The notes under the pieces: generated by a model
What the model was told of the DNA's origin: nothing
The model's database searches: none
What the model saw: only the letters and a program-made list of their open reading frames with translations
Virus record (IMG/VR): IMGVR_UViG_3300032236_001367
Span: 1-41,269 of that record
Length of the DNA: 41,269 nucleotides
Source: a virus
Reading direction: 5' to 3' (one strand)
Program-made: the position numbers and the translations under genes
In this document: positions 19,289-26,718 of the stretch, piece after piece
Layout of the letters: each line of letters opens with the position of its first letter
How positions within the stretch are numbered: the first letter of the stretch is position 1

Positions 19289-19775
19289 CACGCAATAAAG
19301 CGTCTAAAATAGAGATGGTACTCAATGCATCTTTGTGATGAATTGCGACACCACCTGCTTTTTTCCAATCATCAATAACAGATTGAGTATCATCAATGAT
19401 TATGGAATCTGGTGTTGCATATTTGTACTTGTGTTTTTTTCCAGGTACAAAGTTGCGAGGATATTTAATGTGTTTAACAGTAAGCCACACATCTTTTTGA
19501 TATGAGATTTCTTTATGGGATTCTTCTCTTGCAGTAGAGGAAAGAATCTCAACAGGAACACCACAAGTTTCAAGATGGTTCAACAAAACCACCGCATCTG
19601 GCATATAATCCAGTGTGGAAAACTGTTTTGTGCTAATGAAGTTGTCAAAATGACTATAGAATTGTTTCTTCTTATCCGCTTCATGTGGATAAATTTTATA
19701 CAATTCTTTGTAGCGTTTGCCAAAGTCGGCAATTACACCATCCATGTCCAAATAAATTTTAGTAATTTTATGCAT
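19284..19775 (-). CDS. HAD-family phosphatase (5' nucleotidase-like)
   Basis: 163 aa. Motif I is YLDMDGVIADF with D10 as nucleophile and D12 as acid/base; motif II is ILSSTA near residue 77; motif IV is IIIDDTQSVIDDW near 125. This order fits HAD hydrolases of the 5'(3')-deoxyribonucleotidase type, which could adjust nucleotide pools or remove phosphates from nucleic acid ends. A polynucleotide kinase-phosphatase relation is possible, but no kinase domain is present. The ATG overlaps the stop of the esterase gene, so they form an operon with it. A second, gp32-only transcript starts near its 3' end. Confidence 0.75.
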   Translation of the reverse strand: MHKITKIYLDMDGVIADFGKRYKELYKIYPHEADKKKQFYSHFDNFISTKQFSTLDYMPDAVVLLNHLETCGVPVEILSSTAREESHKEISYQKDVWLTVKHIKYPRNFVPGKKHKYKYATPDSIIIDDTQSVIDDWKKAGGVAIHHKDALSTISILDALLRV

Positions 19776-20296
19776 TACAATCTTTTCAAATAATCAATAA
19801 CTAATCCAAAGTGTTTGTCAAACCTGTGGTCTGCATCAGACACAATTGTAACATCAAAACCAGCATCTGTCAAGTTTTTGCTGAAGGTTTGATTATCTAT
19901 TACCTCATCATACTTTGCAAAGAAATATTTGTGTCCTTCATGTGGAGCAAATACATGATAACGTTCACAGATTTCTTCAGGCACACCATACTTTAATAGT
20001 GATGTTGCAGGATCAACTGAAGGATTGATGATAACGGCTTTTGCTTTGTATAGTTTAGCAAGTTTAGCTGCTGTCCAACCACCAAGTGAAGTGCCGACAA
20101 ATACCAATTCAACATCTTGATTCAGATGGTCGATTAGTAGGTTGTCGATCTTATTGGTGAGATACAACATAGCCTCAACAGGATCAACATCCGCTTGAAA
20201 GCAATGTGCATTAAATCCAGCAGATTTAAGTGCTTTTAGTTTTGTGCTTTTTGCGCCAGAACCGTAACCGTGGCAATATACAATTAGTTTTTCCAT
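19775..20296 (-). CDS. YqiA/UPF0227-like alpha/beta-hydrolase esterase
   Basis: 173 aa from the ATG at 20296. An oxyanion-type HGYGSG lies at residues 9-14, the nucleophile elbow GTSLGG at 68-73 with S70, and a C-terminal DADHRF supplies the likely catalytic His. The fold and size fit the YqiA esterase family; the substrate is unknown. I chose ATG 20296 because a GTG two codons upstream has no support. A perfect sigma70 promoter puts the transcription start on this ATG, so the mRNA would be leaderless. It precedes the HAD phosphatase by a stop/start overlap. Such an esterase is unusual between gp59 and gp32. Confidence 0.7.
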   Translation of the reverse strand: MEKLIVYCHGYGSGAKSTKLKALKSAGFNAHCFQADVDPVEAMLYLTNKIDNLLIDHLNQDVELVFVGTSLGGWTAAKLAKLYKAKAVIINPSVDPATSLLKYGVPEEICERYHVFAPHEGHKYFFAKYDEVIDNQTFSKNLTDAGFDVTIVSDADHRFDKHFGLVIDYLKRL

Positions 20297-20302
20297 ATAC
20301 AC

Positions 20303-20331
20303 ATTATATCACATTACAAATAACTTGTCAA
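20303..20331 (-). promoter_or_regulatory. Perfect sigma70 promoter (TTGACA-17-TATAAT), leaderless
   Basis: TTGACA at 20331-20326 and TATAAT at 20308-20303 on the minus strand, spacer 17 nt. Counting 7 nt from the -10 box puts +1 at 20296, the A of the esterase ATG. Confidence 0.85.
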
Positions 20332-20332
20332 C

Positions 20333-20884
20333 TTACTTTTTAGGGTGTCCCATCATAACTTTAGTATGCATTTCTCCACCAATCTTACGGTCATAATGCT
20401 CACCATTATCGTGAGGTTTAACTTCCTTATTCAATAACTCGCCTGCTCTATTTGAGTGAATAACTGGGACGCCCATCTTTCTTTGTAGATGTTCTGCTGC
20501 ACCTGATACCTCACCCCATGCACGTTTCTGTTCATGGTCCTCAATCTTAGTTTTCTTCCAATCTTCTTTACCTTGTTCGCTACCATCAGTAGCAGAGGCA
20601 ATTGATTTACGTCCATGTTGTTTCTTATACAGATTTACAGCAGTAATCTTACCATTACGTTTGGTCGCCTTGATTGCAGAATCTGTAATATCTTTATGAA
20701 TCGCATCAGATTCTTCTTTCGAACCAGACTTATGACCACCATAACCACCAATCTTAGGATGTGAATATGATTTGTGAATCATATCATGGATTTCTTGTCT
20801 ATGTTTTTCTCTATTAACCTCGTGTTCTGGATTAATACCAATAGATAGGACTTTTTCAGTAATAAAAGATTTGAAGTTTTGCAT
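20333..20884 (-). CDS. Putative capsid-targeted internal head protein
   Basis: 183 aa. The N-terminus MQNFKSFITE has the form of T4 capsid-targeting sequences (as in internal protein I, MKTYQEFIAE), and ITE fits the (I/L)XE cleavage rule of the prohead protease gp21. The rest is basic and hydrophilic, with conserved-looking phrases NGKITAVNLYKKQHGRKSIA, SATDGSEQGK and GAAEHLQRKMGVPVI that I recall from many T4-like phages, often behind similar leaders. I infer packaging inside the head and perhaps injection with the DNA. A GNAT-like fold is possible but no catalytic residues are clear. A late promoter core lies 22 nt upstream. Confidence 0.6.
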   Translation of the reverse strand: MQNFKSFITEKVLSIGINPEHEVNREKHRQEIHDMIHKSYSHPKIGGYGGHKSGSKEESDAIHKDITDSAIKATKRNGKITAVNLYKKQHGRKSIASATDGSEQGKEDWKKTKIEDHEQKRAWGEVSGAAEHLQRKMGVPVIHSNRAGELLNKEVKPHDNGEHYDRKIGGEMHTKVMMGHPKK

Positions 20885-20906
20885 GATAGTAAAAGTAGTT
20901 TTTATC

Positions 20907-20914
20907 TATTTATG
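20907..20914 (-). promoter_or_regulatory. Late promoter core CATAAATA before capsid-targeted protein
   Basis: Minus strand CATAAATAG, 22 nt before the ATG at 20884, within the last codons of gp59. A late promoter fits a head-protein role. Confidence 0.55.
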
Positions 20915-21518
20915 CATGTTCAGATACAGCATCCTTGAGTATACTTTTAAACTTGACCTTATCATATTGAATGAAAGGAGTGTACTTCTCAACCTTCATT
21001 TTCCAGTTTGGCCAAATGATATCTTCAGATATTTTTCTGTCCCACATTGGAAAGAAATTCATTATGTCATTCAATATAATCAAAGTCTCAATACAAATAT
21101 CATTTTGCATTGCACCCAGTAACAAATCAGGATGACCGCCAGATGGTACTTTTATCAAGTCATCAGGTTTATCGGCCTGTTCCAAGATACGTGCTATATC
21201 AGTTTCAAAACGATATGTCAAACTCTGATTAATCTTCTGCCACTTTTTGTATACCTCTTCACCATTTGGGCCAGTCATTTCACCCACCCATGATGAATCA
21301 CCATAAACAAAGTTTGCAATGTAGAAGTTTTTAAGTTCTTCCATCGAATACTTACGTGACAGTTTATAGAAACTATACTTAGATTTGTTTCTTAAAAAAG
21401 AATCTTGTGATACATTTGTTTTACCACCATACTTTATGAAATCATATGAAGTGGAAGTAAAATGCAACTTCAAAGCTGAATATAGTTTATACGCTTCAAA
21501 ACCTGTTGTTTCATTCAT
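20910..21518 (-). CDS. gp59: Helicase loader gp59
   Basis: 202 aa, close to T4 gp59 (217 aa). Matching positions include EAYKLYSALKLHF, YDFIKYGGK, KYSFYKLSRKYSMEELKNFY, IANFVYGDSSWVGE and, later, NDICIETLIILNDIMNFF. gp59 binds forked DNA and gp32 and loads the gp41 helicase. It sits 2 nt after gp33 and in the same cluster as gp32, as in T4 (32-59-33 neighbourhood). It is transcribed from the sigma70 promoter ahead of gp33. Confidence 0.9.
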   Translation of the reverse strand: MNETTGFEAYKLYSALKLHFTSTSYDFIKYGGKTNVSQDSFLRNKSKYSFYKLSRKYSMEELKNFYIANFVYGDSSWVGEMTGPNGEEVYKKWQKINQSLTYRFETDIARILEQADKPDDLIKVPSGGHPDLLLGAMQNDICIETLIILNDIMNFFPMWDRKISEDIIWPNWKMKVEKYTPFIQYDKVKFKSILKDAVSEHA

Positions 21519-21520
21519 AA

Positions 21521-21742
21521 TTAAATTGGCAGACTGTTAACTCTTTTAATAAGTGAGAGTGATTGTGCTTCTTCATGTATACGAGCCTTCAGTGATGAGG
21601 ATATAAGTGTTGCTGCTACCTCGATCTCAAGTCCTGTTTCATTACAGTAATCTATAATAGCATCGATACAATTCACCCTATGCTCATTGGCAAGTTTAAT
21701 TACATTTGTACTAAATTCAGATATTTCATCACGGGTTGGCAT
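21521..21742 (-). CDS. gp33: Late promoter coactivator gp33
   Basis: 73 aa. The sequence MPTRDEISEFSTNVIKLANE with DYCNETGLEIEVAATLISSS and the C-terminal LSLIKRVNSLPI matches the short gp33 of aquatic T4-like phages as I recall it. gp33 links host RNA polymerase to the sliding clamp during late transcription; the hydrophobic C-terminal tail is the expected clamp contact. CTGGAG lies 5 nt before the ATG. It is directly followed by gp59. The many (C/T)ATAAATA motifs in the window agree with a gp33/gp55-type late system. Confidence 0.8.
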   Translation of the reverse strand: MPTRDEISEFSTNVIKLANEHRVNCIDAIIDYCNETGLEIEVAATLISSSLKARIHEEAQSLSLIKRVNSLPI

Positions 21743-21766
21743 ATAATCTCCAGGTTTTAATGCATA

Positions 21767-21795
21767 ATCTTAACATAAAGATAATAGATTGTCAA
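21767..21795 (-). promoter_or_regulatory. Sigma70-type promoter for gp33-gp59
   Basis: TTGACA at 21795-21790, 17-nt spacer, TAAGAT at 21772-21767 on the minus strand. The transcript would start near 21760 and leave an 18-nt leader with a Shine-Dalgarno sequence. Confidence 0.8.
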
Positions 21796-22265
21796 GCATC
21801 ATCCGTATAAAATATATGTTTACCAATCTTCACCAGTTTTTTATATTTCCATTTTGGATGTACATACTCAGCATGATAGAATAATGCATTTGATTCTGCA
21901 AGTTCTTGGTGACTTATATTATTCTCAAGAGCATCATGTGCAACAGTAAAACTTCTTTGCCACATAGGAAAGTTTGTTATGGTTTTATCTTCACCAACCC
22001 AGCTGAATTGATATTTCTTACCTCTATGCTGATATACAATAGAGCATATGTCTTTTGGATATCGTGGGTCATTCAAACGATTCAATACAACTTGAGATAC
22101 TGCACGTTTACCTTCATCAGATTCAATACCTGCTTCGTGGTAAATGTTTCTCGCCATGCATAGTACGTCATCATTCAATTGAGGTACTTGCTTGTGGTGA
22201 ATTGTAGGCCATAAAATAAAAAGTGAAAGAAATACTATCAATAGTGAAATTGATTTTTTAGGCAT
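21792..22265 (-). CDS. SleB/CwlJ-like cell wall hydrolase with N-terminal membrane anchor
   Basis: 157 aa from the ATG at 22265; a TTG at 22295 would add ten residues. Residues 5-20 (SISLLIVFLSLFILWP) form a signal anchor or uncleaved signal peptide. The rest fits the Hydrolase_2 (SleB) family: LCMARNIYHEAGIESDEGKR, AVSQVVLNRLNDPRYP, CSIVYQ, QFSWVG and ALFYHAEYVHP. The conserved Glu of YHEAG is the likely catalytic residue. The anchor suggests a secreted or SAR-type endolysin able to cut peptidoglycan from the periplasm. It lies just downstream of the tmRNA on the same strand and may share its transcript. No holin is seen beside it. Confidence 0.8.
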   Translation of the reverse strand: MPKKSISLLIVFLSLFILWPTIHHKQVPQLNDDVLCMARNIYHEAGIESDEGKRAVSQVVLNRLNDPRYPKDICSIVYQHRGKKYQFSWVGEDKTITNFPMWQRSFTVAHDALENNISHQELAESNALFYHAEYVHPKWKYKKLVKIGKHIFYTDDA

Positions 22266-22290
22266 TCGGATTATTTGTAGTTTAGAAATT

Positions 22291-22321
22291 GCCAACTGAT
22301 TCGTTGATAAGGACAGTTGGC
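22291..22321 (-). other. Hairpin at the tmRNA 3' boundary
   Basis: GCCAACTG (22291-22298) and CAGTTGGC (22314-22321) form a perfect 8-bp stem with a 15-nt loop. No U-run follows on the minus strand, so it is more likely a processing or 3'-end structure than a strong terminator. Confidence 0.5.
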
Positions 22322-22456
22322 GAAACCTCAGCCTAGTTTAAGCAGCTAGGCGGTATGCGGAGTCGTTTGCATTTACGTTTTTTTACTTTTAGCGACTATC
22401 TGTGTCGAGTAGCCTAATATAATACTTGTTACCCAATCGATTACCAGAGCAGGCCC
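22322..22456 (-). ncRNA. ssrA: tmRNA coding piece (two-piece, circularly permuted ssrA)
   Basis: The 5' end GGGCCTG (22456-22450) pairs with CAGGTCC of the acceptor piece, giving a 7-bp acceptor stem with a G3-U70 pair, the alanine identity element of tmRNA. Next comes the D-like region CTCTGGTAATCGA, similar to the E. coli tmRNA start. TTGGGTA (22436-22430) and CAAGTATTAT (22428-22419) pair with UAUUCAA and GUAAACUUG of the acceptor piece to form P2. The tag frame follows at 22370-22338. GCCTAG/CTAGGC (22331-22336, 22346-22351) forms helix P5 with the stop codon in its loop. It rescues stalled ribosomes. The 3' end is approximate. Confidence 0.9.
22338..22370 (-). other. ssrA: tmRNA tag reading frame ANDSAYRLAA
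   Basis: Eleven codons read GCA AAC GAC ... GCT GCT TAA, giving Ala-Asn-Asp-Ser-Ala-Tyr-Arg-Leu-Ala-Ala and a stop. The ANDxxYxLAA form and the LAA end match proteolysis tags such as E. coli ANDENYALAA. LAA is the ClpXP degron end. Confidence 0.92.
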
Positions 22457-22531
22457 ATCATAAGTATACCCAAATCTGGAAGTACGGATTCGGTGACCGT
22501 ATCACTTGGGAATCAAACCCACATACACTTA
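22457..22531 (-). other. Intervening segment of the permuted tmRNA precursor
   Basis: This 75-nt stretch lies between the encoded CCA of the acceptor piece and the 5' G of the coding piece. UAAGUGUA (22531-22524) pairs with UAUACUUA (22468-22461) and ACCA largely with UGAU, extending the acceptor stem to about 18 nearly continuous pairs. Two smaller hairpins (GGG..CCC and ACGG..CCGT) lie inside. It is expected to be removed by RNase P and 3' processing. Confidence 0.8.
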
Positions 22532-22598
22532 TGGTGGACCTGGCCGGATTTGAACCGGCGTCTTGAATACTTTTCCTATACCAAGTTTACTACCATTA
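22532..22598 (-). ncRNA. ssrA: tmRNA acceptor piece with T-arm and encoded CCA
   Basis: From 5' to 3' on the minus strand: GUAAACUUG (22590-22582) for P2b, a GGUAUAGGAA-type internal loop, UAUUCAA (22569-22563) for P2a, a T-arm with GCCGG/CCGGC stem and UUCAAAU loop (22559-22543), acceptor strand CAGGTCC (22542-22536), discriminator A and CCA (22534-22532). The loop and T-arm closely resemble the 3' end of E. coli tmRNA. The 5' end is uncertain by several nt; a 7-bp hairpin at 22602-22620 lies just upstream. It precedes the coding piece, the hallmark of permuted tmRNA genes. Confidence 0.9.
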
Positions 22599-22730
22599 TT
22601 AGCGCACCGATTCGGTGTGCTTACCCTTTACGGATTTCTTCAGTAGTTTGAACCACAATTTTTTGGCTTTTTCTAAGTTATGGTCAAACTCTGCACGATT
22701 TAATTTCTGAATAAGTTTTTTAACTTTCAT
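22599..22730 (-). CDS. 43-aa basic peptide upstream of tmRNA
   Basis: Begins MKVKKLIQKLNRAEFDHNLE, continues with KAKKLWFKLLKKS and ends KHTESVR. It is strongly basic and likely one amphipathic helix; no family is recognised. AAAGGA lies 8 nt before the ATG. A sigma70-type promoter 27 nt upstream drives it, and its last codons form a hairpin right before the tmRNA acceptor piece, so peptide and tmRNA are probably on one transcript. RNA processing could cut the two apart. It could also be a leader that tunes tmRNA output. Confidence 0.6.
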   Translation of the reverse strand: MKVKKLIQKLNRAEFDHNLEKAKKLWFKLLKKSVKGKHTESVR

Positions 22731-22757
22731 TGATTACGTCCTTTTGAATTTTGTACA

Positions 22758-22786
22758 ATCATAACATAGAATTGCTTATGTGTCAA
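22758..22786 (-). promoter_or_regulatory. Sigma70-type promoter for the peptide-tmRNA transcript
   Basis: TTGACA at 22786-22781, 17-nt spacer, TATGAT at 22763-22758 on the minus strand. Predicted start near 22751. No riboswitch-like fold is seen between it and the tmRNA. Confidence 0.85.
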
Positions 22787-22792
22787 GCGTTC

Positions 22793-23200
22793 TTAAAAAC
22801 TAAATTTTGGATACTTAACTTTTACCGCCGCACAAGCAGCCAAGTAGTTTGCTTCTTGTTGAGCATCATTCTTGACTTTTGCATCAAGATAATCCGACAT
22901 TGGAGGATAAGATTCAGCACGTAATGTTTGTATCACACGATGAATAATATCTTCATTGATTGCAAGACCCCATGATTGTCTAAAGATAAAATCATAACCA
23001 TCAGGTACAGATGTTTGCAATTGCATTTCTTCTACAACTTGATTTGATAACAACATATAACCAGTACAATCAGGTTTTTGTCCAATCATAATTGTTTGCA
23101 AATTATTATATTTTGGTGTTATAACATCTTGACCTGGCATGCCAGGTGAACCAAAAATTGTTGAAAGGTCTTTTGAGTCGACCGTGCAAAGATAAAACAT
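22793..23200 (-). CDS. Fibre-locus accessory protein, unknown function (135 aa)
   Basis: No named family is recognised. It begins MFYLCTVDSKDLSTIFGSPG and ends with PPMSDYLDAKVKNDAQQEAN, a Tyr/Asp-rich helical tail. Its ATG overlaps the stop of the 217-aa gene, and both follow the propeller genes. Small proteins of this kind next to fibre genes often help fold or attach fibres; that is inference from position only. The C-terminal YLDAKVKND phrase looks familiar from aquatic T4-like phages. Confidence 0.55.
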   Translation of the reverse strand: MFYLCTVDSKDLSTIFGSPGMPGQDVITPKYNNLQTIMIGQKPDCTGYMLLSNQVVEEMQLQTSVPDGYDFIFRQSWGLAINEDIIHRVIQTLRAESYPPMSDYLDAKVKNDAQQEANYLAACAAVKVKYPKFSF

Positions 23201-23853
23201 TAGTCATTCTCCGAAGTTTGTAAGTTTTCGTTTTTTAACGCAATCATTGAAGGTGATTGGCGAAGTTCGATTTTTAAAGGATCGGCGTTGCCTTCCAATA
23301 GTATTGCATTTTCTGGCACTAAACCAATTTGTTGTAATGCATGAAATGTGTGTGGGTTAGACATAGCATTACGTAATTTTGCAGGTGATGGTCGACCATT
23401 TGCAATAATTTCAGCTTGAATTTCTTTACCAATCATAACAGTAAATTCGTTGGCAGCATTAGCTTCAAACATTTCATCATCTGTGTATGGTGTTCCATCT
23501 TCATGTCGTAATCTTGTTGGCTCTGCAATCTCAAACAATTCTGCTAAGAGTTTTTCAAGAGTTTTAATTTCTTTACGATTCAATTCAAAGCTTTCTGTTT
23601 GTGAAACAGTAAAAGAATCTAACTCCAAAATTTCTGCTTGTAATGTCATAATGATATGAGGCAATGCATTAATTTTTTTTGCATTTTCAAGTTCTGACAA
23701 CTTAGCCTTATATTTTAAATCAGCAACTTCTTCTAGTTTAGCTGCACGAATGCGACCTTCTAAGAAGTTTTGTAATTGTTTAATCTTCTCCCACGGTGTC
23801 TCACCGATAACTTGGTAACGATAATTAAATTCACTATTCAATCTTGATGACAT
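23200..23853 (-). CDS. Fibre-locus accessory protein, helical (217 aa)
   Basis: The N-terminus MSSRLNSEFNYRYQVIGETP with WEKIKQLQNFLEGR recurs in aquatic T4-like phages beside structural genes, as I recall. Residues 20-120 are rich in Lys/Glu/Leu and likely coiled coil (DLKYKAKLSELENAKKINAL; EIKTLEKLLAELFEIA). No catalytic motif is seen. AGGAG precedes the ATG with about 10 nt, and a late promoter core lies 25 nt upstream. A fibre assembly or attachment role is a positional inference. Confidence 0.6.
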   Translation of the reverse strand: MSSRLNSEFNYRYQVIGETPWEKIKQLQNFLEGRIRAAKLEEVADLKYKAKLSELENAKKINALPHIIMTLQAEILELDSFTVSQTESFELNRKEIKTLEKLLAELFEIAEPTRLRHEDGTPYTDDEMFEANAANEFTVMIGKEIQAEIIANGRPSPAKLRNAMSNPHTFHALQQIGLVPENAILLEGNADPLKIELRQSPSMIALKNENLQTSEND

Positions 23854-23877
23854 ATTAAAAACTCCTAATTAAAAACA

Positions 23878-23885
23878 TATTTATG
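23878..23885 (-). promoter_or_regulatory. Late promoter core CATAAATA before fibre accessory genes
   Basis: Minus strand TTCATAAATATG; the TAA is also the stop of the upstream propeller gene. It lies 25 nt before the ATG at 23853. Confidence 0.6.
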
Positions 23886-24819
23886 AACTGTATGACGCAG
23901 CAGCTAAGACTCGTCTAACAGTACCAACACCAGTAACATCGACACCAACAACTCCAATATTAGATATAAGATTTGTCATTGATACATACAAAATGCTGGG
24001 AGTAGTAGTATAACCGTATCCAAATATAGCTTTATCGCCACCATATCCAGCAGCAGCTAGCTGCCATCTAGCAGTACCAACACCAGTAACATCTGAACCA
24101 ACAACACCAACATTGGATACTAAATTAGTCATTGATACATTTGTACCGTTATAACCGTATCCAAATATAGCTTTATCACCACCGTATCCTGCGGCTGCTA
24201 AATCCTGTCTAGCAGTACCAACACCAGTAACATCTGAACCAACAACACCAACATTGGATACTAAATTAGTCATTGATACATATACACTGGTAGCAGTTCT
24301 ACCATATCCAAATATAGCCTTATCACTACCATATCCAGTAGCAGCTAAACCATATCTAGCAGTACCAACACCAGTAACATCAGTACCAACAACACCAACA
24401 TTGGATACTAAATTTGTGATTGATACATTTGAACCTGTGTTGCCATATCCAAATATTGCTTTATCACCACCATAACCAGCTGCTGCTAGAGAATATCTAG
24501 CAGTACCAACACCAGTAACATCAGTACCAACAACACCTATGTTTGATACTAAATTAGTCATCGATACATTTGAACCTGTGCTGCCATAACCAAATATAGC
24601 TTTATCACCACCATATCCAGCAGCATCTAAATAATATCTTGAAGTGCCCACACCAGTAACATCTGTGCTAACACCACCATAATTGTTTACCAAATTGGTC
24701 ATTGATACACCTGAACCACTTTCACCATATCCAAAAATAGCTCGTGTTGCAGTAACACTATTTGATATAGTTGATCCGTCGTCATATGTTACGCCGGTTG
24801 CTGTTAATATTGTAGTCAT
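23881..24819 (-). CDS. Six-repeat beta-propeller-like fibre protein, copy 3
   Basis: 312 aa: a short leader with GVTYDDGS, then six repeats of about 47 residues. Each repeat runs (K/R)AIFGYG, a variable loop, (V)S(M/I)TNL(V/I)SN, G-VG-DVTGVGTAR, a variable pair, LAAAGYGGD. The frame is almost invariant while the loop after FGYG changes (ESGSG, STGSN, NTGSN, RTATSVY, YNGTN, YTTTPSILY). Six kelch-like blades would make one propeller with variable loops on one face. It is the last of three tandem paralogues. GVxYxDGS leaders are common in phage fibre proteins, so I infer receptor or glycan binding. Confidence 0.75.
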   Translation of the reverse strand: MTTILTATGVTYDDGSTISNSVTATRAIFGYGESGSGVSMTNLVNNYGGVSTDVTGVGTSRYYLDAAGYGGDKAIFGYGSTGSNVSMTNLVSNIGVVGTDVTGVGTARYSLAAAGYGGDKAIFGYGNTGSNVSITNLVSNVGVVGTDVTGVGTARYGLAATGYGSDKAIFGYGRTATSVYVSMTNLVSNVGVVGSDVTGVGTARQDLAAAGYGGDKAIFGYGYNGTNVSMTNLVSNVGVVGSDVTGVGTARWQLAAAGYGGDKAIFGYGYTTTPSILYVSMTNLISNIGVVGVDVTGVGTVRRVLAAASYSS

Positions 24820-24828
24820 TTAAAATCC

Positions 24829-25779
24829 TTATGAACTGTATGAAGCAGCAGCCAAATAATATCTCGAAGTGCCTATACCAGTAACATCAGTACCGACAAC
24901 ACCTGTATTGGATATTAAATTAGTCATATTCACAAAAACGCCACCGCCGGTATAACCATAACCAAATATTCCTTTATCGCCACCATAACCAGCGGCAGCT
25001 AAACCATATCTAGCAGTACCAACACCAGTAACATCGGAACCAACCACACCTGTGTTTGATACTAAATTGGTGGGACTAAGGGGTGAACCGAAAACATCAC
25101 CGTATCCAAATATAGCCTTATCACCACCATAACCAGCAGCAGCTAAAGCTGATCTTGATCCTCCTACACCAGTAACATCTGTACCAACAACACCAACATT
25201 TGAAACCAAATTCGTTACATTCGTTGCAGTCCCGCCGCTGGTTGATGCATAACCATATCCAAATATAGCCTTATCACCACCATAACCAGCAGCAGCTAAA
25301 TCATATCTAGTGGTACCAATACCAGTTACATCAGTTCCTACAACACCTGTATTGGAAACCAAATTTGTTATTGAATAATAACCGGCGTTGAATCCATAAC
25401 CAAATATAGCTTTATCTCGACCATAACCAGCAGCGGCTGTAGATGAACGAGCCGTGCCGATGCCGGTTACATCTGTACCAACAACACCTACATTTGAAAC
25501 CAAATTCGTTATACTATAGTACGTTGTTCCTGCAAAACCATATCCAAATATTGCTTTATCACCACCATATCCTGCAGCAGCTGGTTGATATCTAGCAGTA
25601 CCAACACCCGTAACATCCAAACTAATACCACCATAATTATTCACCAAATTCGTCACAGCAAAATAGGTACCACCGCCAACAGCACCATATCCAAATATCG
25701 CTTTAGTTGCCCATTTTGCTGATGTTCTTATTGATCCATTTGAATACTGCACACCTGTACTAACTAAACTTGTTGCCAT
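24829..25779 (-). CDS. Six-repeat beta-propeller-like fibre protein, copy 2
   Basis: 316 aa with the same plan as its neighbours: leader with GVQYSNGSIRTSA, then six repeats KAIFGYG...TNLVSN...DVTG(V/I)G..R..(L)AAAGYGGD. The loops after FGYG are longer and differ from both neighbours (AVGGGTYFA, FAGTTYYS, FNAGYYS, YASTSGGTA, DVFGSPLS, YTGGGVFVN). It follows copy 1 by 9 nt with AAGGAT before the ATG, and its C-terminus (YYLAAASYSS) matches the other copies. Probably a virion receptor-binding or accessory fibre protein; no enzyme motif. Confidence 0.75.
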   Translation of the reverse strand: MATSLVSTGVQYSNGSIRTSAKWATKAIFGYGAVGGGTYFAVTNLVNNYGGISLDVTGVGTARYQPAAAGYGGDKAIFGYGFAGTTYYSITNLVSNVGVVGTDVTGIGTARSSTAAAGYGRDKAIFGYGFNAGYYSITNLVSNTGVVGTDVTGIGTTRYDLAAAGYGGDKAIFGYGYASTSGGTATNVTNLVSNVGVVGTDVTGVGGSRSALAAAGYGGDKAIFGYGDVFGSPLSPTNLVSNTGVVGSDVTGVGTARYGLAAAGYGGDKGIFGYGYTGGGVFVNMTNLISNTGVVGTDVTGIGTSRYYLAAASYSS

Positions 25780-25788
25780 TTTGTATCC

Positions 25789-26718
25789 TTATGAACTATA
25801 TGATGCCGCTGCTAAAGTGTTTCTAGCACTACCAACACCAGTTGTATCTGTTGCAACAACACCTTGATTGGATACAAGATTTGTAAGATTCTGTGTATTA
25901 CTTGATATAGTTATTGAACCATATCCAAATATAGCCTTATCACCACCATAACCAGCTGCTGCTAGAGCATATCTAGCACTACCAACACCAGTTGTATCTG
26001 TTGCAACAACACCTTGATTGGATACAAGATTTGTTAATGACACGTTGCTACCGGTAGTACCATATCCAAATATAGCTTTATCACCACCATATCCAGCAGC
26101 AGCTAAGTATCCTCTAGCAGTACCAACACCAGTAACATCAGAACCAACAACACCAGTGTTTGATACAAGATTAGTTAATGAAACGTATGTCGTTGTATAT
26201 CCATATCCAAATATAACCTTATCACCACCATAACCAACTGCTGTTAGAGTATATCTAGCAGTACCAACACCAGTAACATCAGTGCCAACAACTCCAGTGT
26301 TTGTTATTATGTTTGTCATTGAAACAATACTTGGTGTATATCCATATCCAAATATAGCTTTATCACCACCATATCCAGCAGCAGCTAAGTATACTCTAGC
26401 AGTACCAACACCAGTAACATCGGAACCAACCACACCTGTGTTTGATACCAAATTGGTTATTGATGTATATGATGAACCAGTGGTACCATATCCGAATATT
26501 GCTTTATCTCCACCATAACCTGCGGCAGCCAGGCTACTCCTAGTCAAACCAACACCCGTTACATCCGTACCGACACCACCATAATTATTCACCAAATTAG
26601 TCATACCTACAGCTGTGGTGGTGTAACCATATCCAAATATAGCACGAACCGGTGATTTTGATGATGTTTCCAATGAAGTGTCTGGATAGGTGACACCTGA
26701 TCCTATTGTTGTTGACAT
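25789..26718 (-). CDS. Six-repeat beta-propeller-like fibre protein, copy 1
   Basis: 309 aa: leader with GVTYPDTSLETSS, then six repeats as in the other two copies. Loops after FGYG read YTTTAVG, TTGSSYT, YTPSIVS, YTTTYVS, TTGSNVS and SITISSNTQN. Repeats 5 and 6 share the variant NQGVVATDTTGVGSAR, which suggests recent duplication inside the gene. It is first in the three-gene set, with a TATAAATA late promoter core 39 nt upstream. TTG and ATG options are not an issue: the ATG at 26718 opens the leader typical for the set. Confidence 0.75.
   Translation of the reverse strand: MSTTIGSGVTYPDTSLETSSKSPVRAIFGYGYTTTAVGMTNLVNNYGGVGTDVTGVGLTRSSLAAAGYGGDKAIFGYGTTGSSYTSITNLVSNTGVVGSDVTGVGTARVYLAAAGYGGDKAIFGYGYTPSIVSMTNIITNTGVVGTDVTGVGTARYTLTAVGYGGDKVIFGYGYTTTYVSLTNLVSNTGVVGSDVTGVGTARGYLAAAGYGGDKAIFGYGTTGSNVSLTNLVSNQGVVATDTTGVGSARYALAAAGYGGDKAIFGYGSITISSNTQNLTNLVSNQGVVATDTTGVGSARNTLAAASYSS

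Follow-up and report, generated by a model that had tools for sequence, protein, structure and literature searches.

Architecture of the tmRNA locus

The DNA analysed here (the window) is the whole of an IMG/VR record of 41,269 bases and is a fragment of a T4-like phage. It contains T4-like myophage genes for a gp6-like baseplate wedge, a gp32-like single-strand binding protein, a helicase loader, head closure, the tail tube, PhoH and an exonuclease. We found no close cultured relative, because the nearest isolate proteins for PhoH and for the cell-wall hydrolase described below have less than 60% identity. The tmRNA gene of the window also gave no match to isolate phages in a nucleotide search.

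Positions 22594-22284 of the minus strand form a complete circularly permuted tmRNA gene, by the combined evidence of Rfam models, ARAGORN and reading of the strand. Model RF04321 (tmRNA_permuted) aligns over its full length (1-213) to 22594-22338 (-) with 115.9 bits (E = 4e-22; gathering score 47 bits), and RF01850 (beta_tmRNA) aligns to 22666-22284 (-) with 85.7 bits (E = 1.4e-24), narrowly past its gathering score of 84 bits. E-values of this size exclude a chance match. ARAGORN calls a permuted tmRNA (tmRNA*) at 22624-22247 (-) with the tag ANDSAYRLAA. A first-pass annotation, made from the sequence alone, had described a phage-encoded permuted two-piece tmRNA with this tag and had proposed a covariance search with the two-piece models as a check; ARAGORN and both models agree with it. 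The features of the locus, in the direction of transcription, are:

22758..22786 (-): sigma70-type promoter, TTGACA-17-TATGAT (11/12 consensus)
22599..22730 (-): 43-aa open reading frame (ORF) between promoter and tmRNA, RBS AAAAGGA, gene status uncertain (ORF list)
22532..22594 (-): acceptor half, with P2 strand, T-arm, 3' acceptor strand CAGGUCC and encoded CCA (RF04321 alignment, sequence)
22457..22531 (-): intervening sequence, predicted to be excised; folds into a long hairpin that stacks on the acceptor stem (fold, arm complementarity)
22284..22456 (-): coding half, with 5' acceptor strand GGGCCUG, TCGA of the D-arm, P2 strand, tag, P5 and 3' hairpin (RF01850, sequence)
22338..22370 (-): tag frame ANDSAYRLAA plus TAA (ARAGORN)
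22332..22350 (-): P5 hairpin CCTAG/CTAGG with the tag stop codon in its loop, arms 22350-22346 / 22336-22332 (sequence)
22291..22321 (-): 3' hairpin GCCAACTG/CAGTTGGC (sequence and alignment)
21792..22262 (-): cell-wall hydrolase (Hydrolase_2, endolysin-like), the conserved neighbour of the tmRNA (PF07486, 1.9e-22; phrog_938 endolysin)

The order of the parts (3' acceptor half, intervening sequence, 5' half) is the same by strand reading, ARAGORN and Rfam, and is the minus-strand order that had been proposed, with the acceptor half upstream of the coding half. The T-arm and CCA of the acceptor half end at 22532, with ACCA following CAGGUCC, and the coding piece starts with G1 at 22456. Two of the earlier structural claims, a 7-bp acceptor stem with G3-U70 and a P5 with the stop codon in its loop, can both be read directly in the sequence, as GGGCCUG/CAGGUCC and CCTAG/CTAGG respectively. 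The tag codons, GCA-AAC-GAC-TCC-GCA-TAC-CGC-CTA-GCT-GCT-TAA at 22370-22338 (-), begin with an Ala resume codon and encode a hydrophobic end in ...AA. Only the 3' boundary had to be moved: an end at 22322 is too short, because it leaves the 3' hairpin (22321-22291) outside the gene and RF01850 extends to 22284. A 12-nt near-repeat, ACCGATTCGGTG / ACGGATTCGGTG, occurs at 22606-22617 in a hairpin before the tmRNA and at 22484-22495 in the intervening sequence.

The hydrolase gene lies shortly downstream of the tmRNA on the same strand, and we found no terminator-like site between the two. Elsewhere in the window there are three tandem paralogues of about 310 aa (23881-26718), with repeats around IFGYG...NLVSN.GVVG.DVTGVGTAR, of which the two that were scanned have no PHROGs family. 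Positions 19775-20302 encode an alpha/beta-hydrolase-like protein of family UPF0227.

Promoter, leaders and covariation

The sigma70-type promoter recognized in the first-pass annotation is real as a consensus match. Promoters matching the consensus at 10 or more of 12 positions, with a 17-nt spacer, were found within about 260 nt upstream of the tmRNA at 15 of 16 loci tested. Scores of 11 or 12 of 12 occur at 13 of the 16, each reached by at most 3 of 200 shuffles, and since many of the sixteen loci are related they do not amount to independent observations. The closest relatives of the window, L002 and L003, have the same promoter directly before the tmRNA. As for the peptide gene that had been thought to be co-transcribed, the 43-aa ORF exists, but it belongs to no recognized family (no PHROG or Pfam match) and occurs only in the window contig, with no tblastn match in 20 related loci. 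Because it has no relative in these loci, it may be a passenger.

Another group of loci has a foldable leader of about 90 nt separating the promoter from the tmRNA. In this leader a 10-bp stem encloses three hairpins (z about -2.6). It is found, for example, at L138:1587-1680 (-) and L129:3433-3530, and is also present in L130, L133, L135, L136, L139, L201 and L202. In the loci scanned it matches no Rfam family at E values up to 2, and its core pattern occurs in 9 viral stretches, each of which lies immediately before a tmRNA. L129 (3531-3628), L135 and L203 have a different foldable leader, with the closing stem ACACTATA/TATAGTGT, directly before the tmRNA. The window has no Rfam riboswitch at gathering score, and none at E up to 5 in positions 20000-25000, in keeping with the earlier statement that the glutamine riboswitch known from another phage is absent here.

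The paired strands of these genes vary together. Among 63 viral genes with delimited halves, all 441 of 441 acceptor-stem pairs are standard, whereas redealing the 3' strands among phages gives 366 standard pairs on average and 388 at most. The contrast is overstated, because candidates had to have 5 or more of the 7 pairs to enter the test (the strict pattern left 31 of 116 genes undelimited). Positions 4-7 of the stem vary on both sides together, and G3-U70 is invariant. The 3' hairpin also changes in step, from GCCAACTG/CAGTTGGC in the window to GCCGACTG/CAGTCGGC in L129 and L138 (alignment). The intervening sequence of the window folds as a long hairpin beside the acceptor stem (-38.4 kcal/mol, z -3.14). 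Across 55 viral loci, its arms form a duplex of mean energy -17.8 kcal/mol with their own partners, compared to -9.0 kcal/mol when cross-paired, a difference reached in 0 of 2000 permutations. The hairpin resembles the expected substrate for processing, and would presumably be processed.

Conservation, tags and mosaicism among viral loci

Searching with the hydrolase protein, we found six related viral loci, down to 42% identity, each of which has a permuted tmRNA on the same strand, upstream of the hydrolase. The tags read ANQEVYALAA (L002), ANDSAYRLAA (L003), ANDAYFGEERLAA (L004), ANDSVFALAA (L005), ANDAQFALAA (L006) and ANDSAYYQDLRLAA (L007). RF01850 scores in relatives, where listed, range from 79.7 to 143 bits, with L131, L136 and L138 slightly below the cut-off. 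The exact tag ANDSAYRLAA is present in 14 viral contigs, 11 of which have a hydrolase homologue downstream; in the remaining three the sequence stops a short way past the tmRNA. Viral contigs in general often carry permuted tmRNAs, with at least 120 matches to a loose pattern and, among the matches listed, at least 81 permuted genes called by ARAGORN. No permuted tmRNA was found in three large phages taken as relatives (PV558790, OQ984149 and MN094788), and the gene is therefore dispensable in some T4-like or large phages.

The conserved linkage, the proximity of the hydrolase on the same strand and the lack of a terminator-like site between the genes would all fit a tmRNA gene that serves mainly as a leader or regulatory element of the hydrolase, timing lysis. 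We consider this very improbable: a complete tRNA domain, with its G3-U70 and CCA, and a tag frame would be superfluous for regulation, several relatives have another stretch of several hundred bases between the tmRNA and the hydrolase, and the tmRNA is located elsewhere in the Menderavirus phages and in Melnitz.

All related loci called by ARAGORN have an undamaged tag frame, P5 and stop codon, and every tag so called keeps the C-terminal Ala-Ala (L001-L007, L128-L141). At position -4 the tag of the window has Arg. Ala is the usual residue there, in 62 of 74 tags of the viral sample and also in the clear examples of cellular permuted tags that we saw. A pattern for ANDSAYRLAA, requiring a TAA stop and placing no condition on the flanking sequence, had 0 matches in 84,980 bacterial and archaeal species (one genome each). 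A search of 399 genomes of one order for permuted tags with Arg at -4 gave none, but it had no power, since an Ala control pattern of the same design matched only 1 of 100; we therefore do not put Arg at this position forward as a phage hallmark. An attempt to assign a host through the tmRNA, by searching genome contigs for the 10-aa-tag pattern, gave permuted genes of Cupriavidus and Gallionellaceae, whose tags differ, and was rejected.

Since tmRNA genes are common integration sites and prophages contain fragments of them (PMC9004378), the gene could in principle be a functionless piece of a host ssrA captured by imprecise excision. We give this almost no credence: the gene is whole, it lies in a T4-like phage with no prophage context, its position is conserved across widely diverged phages, its stems show compensatory changes, and its tag is absent from the species genomes.

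Different parts of the gene give conflicting relationships among the phages. L129 and L138 have an identical 105-nt tag segment, whereas each upstream segment shows only about 57% identity. Conversely, L129 and L201 have identical acceptor halves and tag segments that are 58% identical. The window and L002 share 96% identity in the hydrolase gene and only 57-65% in the tag segment, while its own tag segment and those of L129 and L138 share 92% identity over 98 nt in the case of the window. In such phages the hydrolase genes beside the tmRNA can be aligned at only about 60% (L138; the L129 locus stops before its hydrolase, so a value for L129 is not meaningful). These conflicts contradict a single history. 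Recombination within the tmRNA gene, by which the tag and pseudoknot part would have been exchanged separately from the acceptor part, explains the sequence identities best. One could go further and propose that phage tmRNAs make up a gene pool of their own, apart from host ssrA, in which halves are swapped as cassettes and tags unsampled in bacteria redirect or tune degradation; we regard this wider proposal as possible but doubtful. If the gene works, such phages provide a natural set of two-piece tmRNAs whose halves have already been recombined by nature.

Proposed function and comparison with known systems

We conclude that the feature is very probably a complete phage-encoded two-piece tmRNA (ssrA) of a betaproteobacterial-like permuted type, working by host-dependent trans-translation. 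A single precursor would be transcribed from the sigma70-type promoter, and host tRNA-processing enzymes would excise the intervening hairpin. The products would be an acceptor RNA with CCA at its end (22532) and a coding RNA starting at G1 (22456), joined through base pairing in the acceptor stem and P2. Host alanyl-tRNA synthetase would charge the tmRNA via G3-U70, and host SmpB and EF-Tu would deliver it to ribosomes stalled on broken mRNAs. The stalled protein would then gain ANDSAYRLAA, a putative Clp-type degron, and the ribosome would be freed. Host SmpB would be needed because we found no SmpB in the phages examined: neither the window nor any of 14 further phage records, several of them 140-170 kb long, gave a match, whereas the control search detected the protein in 10 of 14 named genomes.

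Most likely, the phage would use the RNA for ordinary trans-translation while the host is being shut off. As host RNA and DNA are destroyed in the takeover, the phage would probably benefit from ribosomes that stay free and from the removal of truncated proteins. The functions suggested in the first-pass annotation, tagging of proteins from stalled ribosomes and protection of the phage's own translation, are plausible. During T4 infection the host SsrA is stable while host mRNAs and tRNAs are degraded, and the authors of that study suggest that stable SsrA keeps ribosomes available (PMC9697503). A phage copy would secure this availability and add a tag of the phage's choosing. We found no paper on the experimental function of a coding phage tmRNA in the literature searched. 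A tmRNA of phage DS6A that has no coding part inhibits the host tmRNA when expressed in E. coli (PMC11915505), which, together with the unusual Arg at -4 of the window's tag, would fit an RNA whose main role is to compete with host trans-translation or draw it away as a decoy, or to alter the tag, so that proteins escape degradation or are degraded differently. A pure decoy, however, would need none of the tag frame, P5, stop codon and C-terminal Ala-Ala that the ARAGORN-called relatives keep intact, and we think such a role unlikely. The mosaic halves and a tag that the cellular genomes searched do not show raise the question of whether phages supplement host ribosome rescue by trans-translation or change the fate of the tagged proteins.

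Two-piece tmRNAs in phages are not a new class. The first-pass annotation correctly named a two-piece ssrA in phage Melnitz, described in 2022 in a paper that counts 53 two-piece tmRNAs among isolate phages; marine or aquatic samples were the source of 50 (PMC9004378). Its remark that the class was not wholly new was right but understated the case, given these 53 and the annotated records of Stenotrophomonas phages. A 2025 tmRNA database contains 79 bacteriophage sequences of all gene forms (PMC11915505). The gene in the window thus belongs to a known kind, because Melnitz, other isolate records and Menderavirus already carry permuted tmRNAs.

Melnitz (MZ577097) resembles the window phage in being a large T4-like myophage of an aquatic bacterium with a permuted tmRNA (RF04321, 113.4 bits) and no phage SmpB. 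Its tag is ANDNYVPVDYALAA, compared to ANDSAYRLAA in the window, and the authors who described it grouped its gene with Alphaproteobacteria (PMC9004378), whereas the window gene matches the beta model. Melnitz has a predicted glutamine riboswitch and an adjoining transcription coactivator gene; in the window we found no riboswitch, and the adjoining gene is the cell-wall hydrolase.

The Menderavirus phages of Stenotrophomonas (Bhz51, Marzo and Moby), T4-like as the window phage is, have a permuted tmRNA that scores about 118 bits with RF04321 and above the cut-off with RF01850, and a distantly related hydrolase. The tmRNA is annotated in some of their records and unannotated in that of Moby. 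Their gene differs from that of the window in lying in a tRNA cluster before nrdA and in its tag, read as VAANDDSYTVRIAA (L177, L178, L181). The ssrA of the Stenotrophomonas host is, we assume, one-piece, with a tag similar in style to that of Menderavirus.

Cellular permuted tmRNAs of betaproteobacteria (RF01850; Cupriavidus, Gallionellaceae) share with the window the gene order, the tRNA domain and the 10-aa tag class. The tags that we saw in them (ANDEKFALAA, ANDENFAMAA, ANDENYAIAA, ANDERFALAA and similar) differ from ANDSAYRLAA, and their intervening sequences are 30-37 nt long, compared to 75 nt in the window. Only 3 of 60 sampled genomes of the Cupriavidus order have a permuted tmRNA above the cut-off, so a host among the betaproteobacteria could itself lack the two-piece form. 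One Gallionellaceae metagenome-assembled genome (L196, genome G010) has both forms on one contig and strand, about 280 bases apart: a one-piece tmRNA at 819-1188 (ANDEKYALAA) and a permuted one at 1471-1802 (ANDENFAMAA). What is new in the phages described here is a beta-like lineage in uncultured T4-like phages, a tag absent from the bacterial and archaeal species genomes searched, and mosaicism within the gene. Phage two-piece tmRNAs thus reach past the marine SAR11/OM43-type phages to a beta-like lineage at a lysis locus.
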